Part shown: positions 55,301 to 56,035 of the stretch, piece by piece
Layout of the letters: the number at the start of each line of letters is the position of its first letter
How positions within the stretch are numbered: the stretch's first letter is position 1
Assembly: GCA_025041175.1 (NCBI GenBank)
Contig: JAKCFJ010000003.1
Coordinates: forward strand, 434,001 to 498,000
Source of the DNA: Halobacteriales archaeon YIM A00010
Lineage (GTDB): Archaea; Halobacteriota; Halobacteria; Halobacteriales; Haloarculaceae
DNA: 64,000 nt
Direction of reading: 5' to 3'
Program-made: the position numbers and the translations under genes
The notes under the pieces: generated by a model
Database searches by the model: none
What the model was told of the DNA's origin: nothing
Seen by the model: the letters and a program-made list of their open reading frames with translations, nothing else

Positions 55301-56035
55301 GCCGAGTCGGAGAACGCCCAACCCGACCTCGAAAAGGTCCGGAAACTTCAACGGCTGGATGACTGGGGCGAGCAGTTGGTGAACCTGCTCACTGGCCCGT
55401 CGATTGACCAGTCCACGTTCGCTGCGATGCGTTAGCGCCGTACTCGGGACCGTATCCGATGGCGCTACTGGTGCGGGCGTTCATCGTCGAGAAGATCAAC
55501 GGGTGGGACGAAACCGCCCTCTACAACTACCTCCACGCGAATCCGTCACTTCGACGGAAACTCGGCTTCGAGACGCTGCCAGCGTTCACAAGACTACCGT
55601 CTTGTGGGCCAACCGGACTACGTCCGGTGACGTTCATTAGATCGGTTGTCTAATGAGCCAACCAGAAGCCTTCGGCATCTGGTGACGCAATCGACGTTCT
55701 GGCGGGCGTGGAACCACCGCTTCAGCGATGAACTGCGCGACGCCGTGGAGGAGTGTGCTGACAGCATCATCATGGCTGCGCGTGCCTGCGATATCTCCTT
55801 CCCCGAGCGAGTCGCCATTGGCGAAGCGGATGAGCCACAGGCCGCCGACCGCCCCGAACACGAACTCATCGCGGAGAAGACTGACGAGGTGTGGCAGCAG
55901 GCCAAGCCGTTCGTCTGTGATGCGTTTGCCCTCGACCGAGGGCCAATACTGGCAGATCCACGAGAACGCCTTCTGGGAACAGCACGCCTACATGGGGATG
56001 CGCGAAGACATCACGTTCGGAGTGAAATCTGTCGG
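55290..56035 (+). pseudogene. Decayed insertion-sequence transposase, N-terminal part
   Basis: Fragments in three frames belong to one haloarchaeal transposase. PDLEKVRKLQRLDDWGEQLV (from ~55323) and PMALLVRAFIVEKINGWDET followed by RRKLGFETLP (55456-55581) lead up to a 103-nt insertion. The sequence then resumes with QSTFWRAWNHRFSDELRDAV (55688 on), VWQQAKPFVCDAFALDRG, and after a frameshift near 55935 with WQIHENAFWEQHAYMGMRED. The DDE catalytic region is missing because the sequence ends near 56035. At least one stop, two frameshifts and a truncation make it non-functional. The IS family cannot be named safely. Confidence 0.7.
55585..55687. repeat. 103-nt insertion of two tandem two-hairpin units
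   Basis: Unit 1 (55585-55632) and unit 2 (55633-55687) both begin TTCA and end GGTGACG. Each holds a first stem-loop, a G/A-GCCA linker and a second stem-loop. Stems are CACAAGAC/GTCTTGTG and ACCGGAC/GTCCGGT in unit 1, and CATTAGA/TCTAATG and ACCAGA/TCTGGT in unit 2, so pairing is kept although the sequences differ. The insertion splits the transposase codons for ETLP and QSTFW exactly, with no evident target duplication beyond CG. Confidence 0.65.

Follow-up and report, generated by a model that had tools for sequence, protein, structure and literature searches.

The 103-nt insertion described here, located in a window of 64,000 nucleotides (the whole stretch of DNA analysed) from Halobacteriales archaeon YIM A00010, is composed of two head-to-tail copies of a mobile two-hairpin repeat of about 50 bases. 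This repeat is real and widespread; it belongs to the REP-dimer kind, of which it represents a haloarchaeal variant, and its targeting is SMR-like.

The host of the insertion is the remnant of a DDE-type (PF01609) transposase gene on the forward strand. Its left part (55459..55584) was recognised from intact relatives and from Pfam, where an intact relative matched PF01609; its right part (55688..56035) displayed 94% identity to query residues 38-91 and, compared with the L354 and L355 proteins, lost the frame after about 55930. Intact relatives, present elsewhere in the same genome at 71-76% identity, were uninterrupted at the insertion point, which falls between the codons GCG and CAA, and the paralogue L356 presented exactly the corresponding empty site with a single CG (CCAG-CG-CAATC). 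Unit 1 (48 nt, 55585..55632, forward strand) contains hairpins at 55584-55609 and 55612-55628, and unit 2 (55 nt, 55633..55687, forward strand) contains hairpins at 55632-55658 and 55661-55683; both end in GACG and share the plan TTCA-hairpin-GCCA-hairpin-GGTGACG. The CG dinucleotide 5' of unit 1 (55583..55584, forward strand) is either the target site or a left tag, and the CG closing unit 2 (55686..55687, forward strand) is the second copy of the flanking dinucleotide. The net insertion amounts to 103 nt, which can alternatively be read as 101 nt with CG duplicated (2 bp). Positions and plan agreed exactly with the initial annotation, which had described two units of 48 and 55 nt placed between two transposase codons with almost no target duplication; the latter would correspond to the 2-bp CG.

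The RNA fold predicted for 55575-55700 reached -54.1 kcal/mol (z -5.3), a value equalled by none of 200 shuffled sequences, and the DNA fold of 55585-55687 gave a z of -6.7. Twenty-four units from the same genome were aligned, the named structure was tested on them and the covariance model R1 was built, against which the window units scored 51.8 bits (unit 1; E 1e-12) and 64.4 bits (unit 2; E 3e-16). In this alignment 94.4% of the cells were paired vs. 79% in shuffles, double changes occupied 78 cells vs. 22 and were found in 12 of the 21 pairs, and no more than 40% of the cells paired when partners were slid against each other. These data indicated that the stems are under structural constraint and that the two separate hairpins are strongly kept, which bears out the selection for structure initially read from the four window stems.

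The aligned units have CG-T-TCAC.AGA at hairpin 1 with its flank, and CG-TCACCAGA at hairpin 2 when this is reverse-complemented. The reverse complement, CGTC-ACCAGAA, shows CGTC in 23-24 of the 24 units, and hairpin 1 carries CG-TTC, that is, the CGTT variant and not CGTC. The spacer after hairpin 1 is GCCA, and TGGC comes after hairpin 2 read in the same sense. Since the two halves are inverted relatives, the unit corresponds to a REP-like hairpin with a CGTC tag, dimerised head-to-head, and not to fused IS605 ends. Overall length ranged from about 46 to 57 nt, with ends sharing only about TCAC/GTGA, stems of 7-11 bp whose second pair is mostly C-G, and loops mostly of 3 nt. Triloops of the form GNA or its complement TNC were found in 34 of 52 cases for hairpin 1 and in 44 of 63 for hairpin 2 (65-70% vs. 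12.5% expected). Hairpins of the d(GCGNAGC) type are unusually stable in single-stranded DNA, and this loop preference fits single-strand folding, short of proof. A second subtype displayed the spacer TGCTA (TAGCA on the opposite strand) together with TG (or CA) flanks and ends; aligned separately, it presented the same kind of covariation, and its own model often matched it on both strands. Eleven units of the own genome were matched by R1 on both strands, in register.

A first BLAST search of the own genome gave 12 matches including the window itself, and a structural pattern hit 13 places, including one long match due to chance (the reversed-pattern control gave none); taken together, these matches identified the unit as a dispersed repeat. 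R1 produced 142 matches in this genome, reduced after merging of overlaps to 122 distinct units at 95 sites. Arrays of 2-4 units occurred at 18 sites, with all units on one strand, i.e., head-to-tail, at 16 of them. At E 0.001, units were detected in 52 of 59 relatives. When genomes were drawn evenly over the phylum, 40 of the 43 that belong to the same order (haloarchaea) were positive vs. none of 204 others. Haloarchaea alone, Halorubrum foremost, appeared among the matches listed in a pattern scan of named genomes, and a pattern search of viral contigs gave no match. In the plasmid collection there were matches to the host gene and none to the 103 nt, and Rfam returned no family on the window or the test loci except a tRNA and an S15 leader.

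Insertion sites were compared with the ends of the units. In 83 of 110 sites the unit was preceded by the same dinucleotide as that closing it (permutations averaged 53 and never exceeded 66), and the flank CG was present at 66 of 71 CG-ending units. Units with the TAGCA spacer starting with TCACC or TTACC had a CA flank in all 19 cases listed, the boundary being set by the hairpin; the weak CA row of the flank-vs-end table is partly a one-base boundary offset. Empty sites were also found in other contexts: the large structured repeat of Halorubrum occurs in versions with and without the unit at the identical point, and in L166 a unit interrupts the IS605 left palindrome CCCGCCGTTCACGGCGGGCG after ...GGCG, the L165 copy being intact. 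Compared in this way, the sequences indicated a precise insertion beside a dinucleotide matching the unit's own end (CG, or TG/CA in the second subtype). The flank pattern is equally compatible with a 2-bp duplication and with an IS605-like cleavage-site rule; the units, which lie 3' of an oligonucleotide matching their own 3' end and lack a long duplication, show a feature of the IS200/IS605 type, from which a 2-bp duplication is not distinguishable. The spacer GCCA was accompanied by the end GACG in 83 of 92 units and GCTA by GATG in 31 of 35. A-type and T-type units are one element read on opposite strands, so this tracking of end by spacer amounts essentially to a single change and is no more than suggestive; guide pairing in the style of IS608 was set aside on this account.

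The covariance-model search proposed in the initial annotation thus gave many haloarchaeal copies, in 1-4 tandem units and with empty sites, as a mobile structured repeat would; further copies were plentiful and the intact relatives of the transposase lacked the hairpins, which are neither confined to this locus nor part of the transposase's own sequence. Dispersal, structure, precise insertion and the target rule are demonstrated by sequence, and mobility is well supported, the single-strand mechanism and the enzyme being inferred.

Many of the targets are other mobile elements, namely tnpB genes, IS605 palindromes and IS6/ISH transposases, as seen in the individual stretches of sequence from which contexts were read. 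On chromosome C1 a tnpB or ISH gene lay within 500 nt of 11 of 28 sites vs. 17 of 1000 random kilobases (p ~1e-11), an enrichment that is descriptive, given that the tnpB/ISH reference set was picked after examples had been seen. Units were located, without duplication, inside terminal palindromes of the IS605/PATE type (L113, L210, L211, L104, L107, L108, L303, and L309, and the L165/L166 pair). An IS6-like transposase (family assigned from a motif, with no Pfam hit) is a target too, as are the large structured repeat and a few ordinary genes; the neighbour genes recurring near units were mainly those of TnpB and the IS6-like transposase, as targets. Within genes, units occurred in both orientations, most hosts were decayed mobile elements and many copies shifted the reading frame. 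The IS6-like transposase copies of the own genome displayed a conserved site (QYWL.A/VDP, the slash marking the insertion) with arrays differing in length and composition, for instance at C2:765666-765880, C2:854029-854140, C3:633682-633848, and C3:704026-704134, which suggests array turnover at a fixed site.

A literature search, which did not reach subscription papers, returned no description of the two-hairpin unit, in keeping with its having been called unfamiliar in the initial annotation; a relative did emerge, the nearest match found being the head-to-head dimers of CGTC-tagged REPs (Di Nocera et al. 2013, PMC3733652). These are known from bacterial species, occur mainly as head-to-head dimers and have no dedicated transposase; they possess an unpaired CGTC (or TGTC/CCTC) tag, a short CCA-like tail, a stem of 8-9 bp with A-T at the first two pairs, and a loop of 4-5 nt (PMC3733652). 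The haloarchaeal unit resembles them in its CGTC tag (variant TGTC) outside the hairpin, its head-to-head heterodimers, its variable stems and loops, the lack of a dedicated transposase and the presence of some copies in genes. The GCCA after hairpin 1 could correspond to their CCA tail, whereas hairpin 2, in the same sense, has TGGC. In contrast, the unit is archaeal, has mostly triloops and a CGTT tag on hairpin 1, and its stems of 7-11 bp with a mostly C-G second pair depart from the stem and loop definition of these REPs. Unlike them, its partners are adjacent, nearly always paired and arranged in head-to-tail arrays, insertion in other mobile elements is frequent, and empty sites have been demonstrated.

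Other known systems shared fewer traits with the unit. SMR-A of Haloquadratum walsbyi is about 110 bp long, with prominent terminal inverted repeats and copies commonly >95% identical (PMC3119063). Both are haloarchaeal, lack a transposase and a long duplication, lie within near-terminal IS605 palindromes and have no known mobiliser; the unit differs in its length (48-57 nt), its two short hairpins and its diverse stems, the comparison with SMR-A (HqIRS42/43/55) being one of published descriptions. REPINs are inverted doublets of REP hairpins with a GTAG tag and a cognate RAYT gene (PMC3116915, PMC8266576), and RAYTs cut beside the hairpins at CT or CA, a choice made partly by the GTAG tag (PMC8266576). 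The unit likewise is an inverted hairpin doublet moved as a whole, with a dinucleotide next to the hairpin, where cleavage takes place in REPINs; however, it has no GTAG, and no Y1 gene flanked by units was found. In Archaea, IS200 is the only Y1 subclass reported, with no RAYT (PMC6006769), and the main text of a 2025 REP survey including archaea does not mention haloarchaea (PMC12306157).

In our preferred reading, which we consider about an even bet, the unit is non-autonomous, consists of two inverted REP-like hairpins and would move as folded single-stranded DNA by means of an HUH-type nuclease provided in trans. Recognition of the hairpins by this nuclease would be followed by a cut at a YR dinucleotide (CG, or TG/CA in the other subtype) and by rejoining of the ends, and the terminal CG of each inserted unit could serve as a fresh target, giving rise to head-to-tail arrays. 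A candidate enzyme would be the IS200-type Y1 TnpA of the host, though many genomes carrying units are without it. Y1_Tnp was found in 30 of the 59 relatives; among near-complete genomes it was present in 24 of 43 and absent in 19, and 17 of these 19 still carried units. The number of Y1 copies correlated weakly with that of units in the 43 near-complete genomes (rho 0.32, p 0.03, phylogeny not corrected), and five of 13 further carriers had no Y1, including a 99% complete genome with 22 units. A resident Y1 is therefore not required for the presence of units, movement being a separate matter. No autonomous element with the ends of the unit and no unit-flanked tnpA (Y1) gene were found, and a dedicated Y1 enzyme was rejected on that ground; the units near Y1 genes were insertions of the ordinary kind, within IS605 elements or around them. 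On chromosome C1, with a GC skew too weak for this purpose and two Orc1 sites, no replication-strand bias was demonstrable. The single-strand movement of the IS200/IS605 style suggested initially is accordingly possible and unproven, with Y1 missing from many near-complete carriers.

The flanks can also be read as a 2-bp duplication of CG or TG/CA made by a double-strand DNA transposase or recombinase acting on the inverted ends TCAC...GTGA; this would make the unit a very small MITE or SMR-like element, with hairpins that matter for some other purpose. Besides the flanks, this explanation, which we regard as possible though rather unlikely, draws on the SMR of Haloquadratum, whose ends are inverted, for which no mobiliser is known and which likewise enter IS605 palindromes (PMC3119063). 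It accounts poorly for the strong conservation of two separate hairpins and not of terminal repeats alone, and for a dinucleotide set by the subtype instead of being free; moreover, no relative combining a transposase with the unit's ends was found. PATEs, whose terminal palindromes are those of IS605 elements (PMC3119063), had been the closest parallel in the initial annotation, and the unit would then consist of the left end of an IS200/IS605 element fused to its right end, mobilised by the TnpA of that element. Like PATEs and IS200/IS605 elements, it has two subterminal hairpins, no long duplication and a fixed short target (PMC3119063), being inserted 3' of a short oligonucleotide equal to its own end. 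This parallel did not hold, and fused IS605 ends are improbable: the local IS605 terminal palindromes (CCCGCCGTTCACGGCGGG and similar) are unrelated in sequence and are themselves interrupted by units, which lie inside such elements and not at their ends, each hairpin is an inverted copy of the other, and Y1 is missing in many carriers. An RNA-level role, with the unit being spliced out, bypassed by ribosomes or regulatory, and its spread following from that function, would agree with the strong constraint on the stems, with an ABC transporter of otherwise full length (622 aa) that contains a unit and is hit at the same codon in a second genus, and with a macrodomain gene containing a 57-nt unit in frame and without a stop. 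Given the insertion in both orientations, the mostly decayed mobile-element hosts and the many frameshifting copies, we judge it highly improbable.

A further reading is offered as speculation that we hold to be doubtful: the units might constitute a haloarchaea-wide REP-dimer system, absent outside the order, with a mobiliser that is neither RAYT nor IS200 and a spacer that helps to choose the dinucleotide (GCCA-CG, GCTA-TG), accumulating in competing transposons, both in their recognition hairpins and in their genes. For bacterial CGTC-tagged REPs no mobiliser is known, a lack for which the SMR of Haloquadratum have also been termed enigmatic. In Archaea the unit offers a clean and abundant example: its ends and target dinucleotide are defined and its empty sites numerous, which turns the search for its mobiliser into a direct experiment. 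If units prefer the recognition hairpins of IS605, they may also restrain those transposons together with their TnpB nucleases.

Several further observations were made during this work. In the ABC transporter the unit occupied the same codon (LNN/DA) in two genera, at 5552-5606 of L260, a MAG with the 622-aa gene, and at 1717-1771 of L208, on the reverse strand in both. The 57-nt unit in frame is located at 3278-3334 of L249, in an apparent macrodomain protein gene of Halostagnicola. Unit orientation on C1 of G271 followed long same-strand blocks (5 runs in 23 units, by eye), and most listed units of G216 and all those of G136 were on the same strand; this may reflect the replication direction of the larger repeat. 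The Y1 tnpA at C1:2536093-2536419 of G000 (L127 1279-1722) had an in-frame insertion of two hairpins of another sequence type. Finally, the large dispersed structured repeat of about 150-300 nt (GTGGGACTGAAAGGGGC...GGGGCTTTCG) had no Rfam match and contained stretches folding at -115 to -155 kcal/mol; it was found in L244, L307, L261, L250, L284, L267, L301, and many other loci of Halorubrum and Halomarina, often with two-hairpin units in its multibranch loop, and in L331 it contained two hairpins of yet another type, which ends in GCTGTC and is flanked by a matching GTC.
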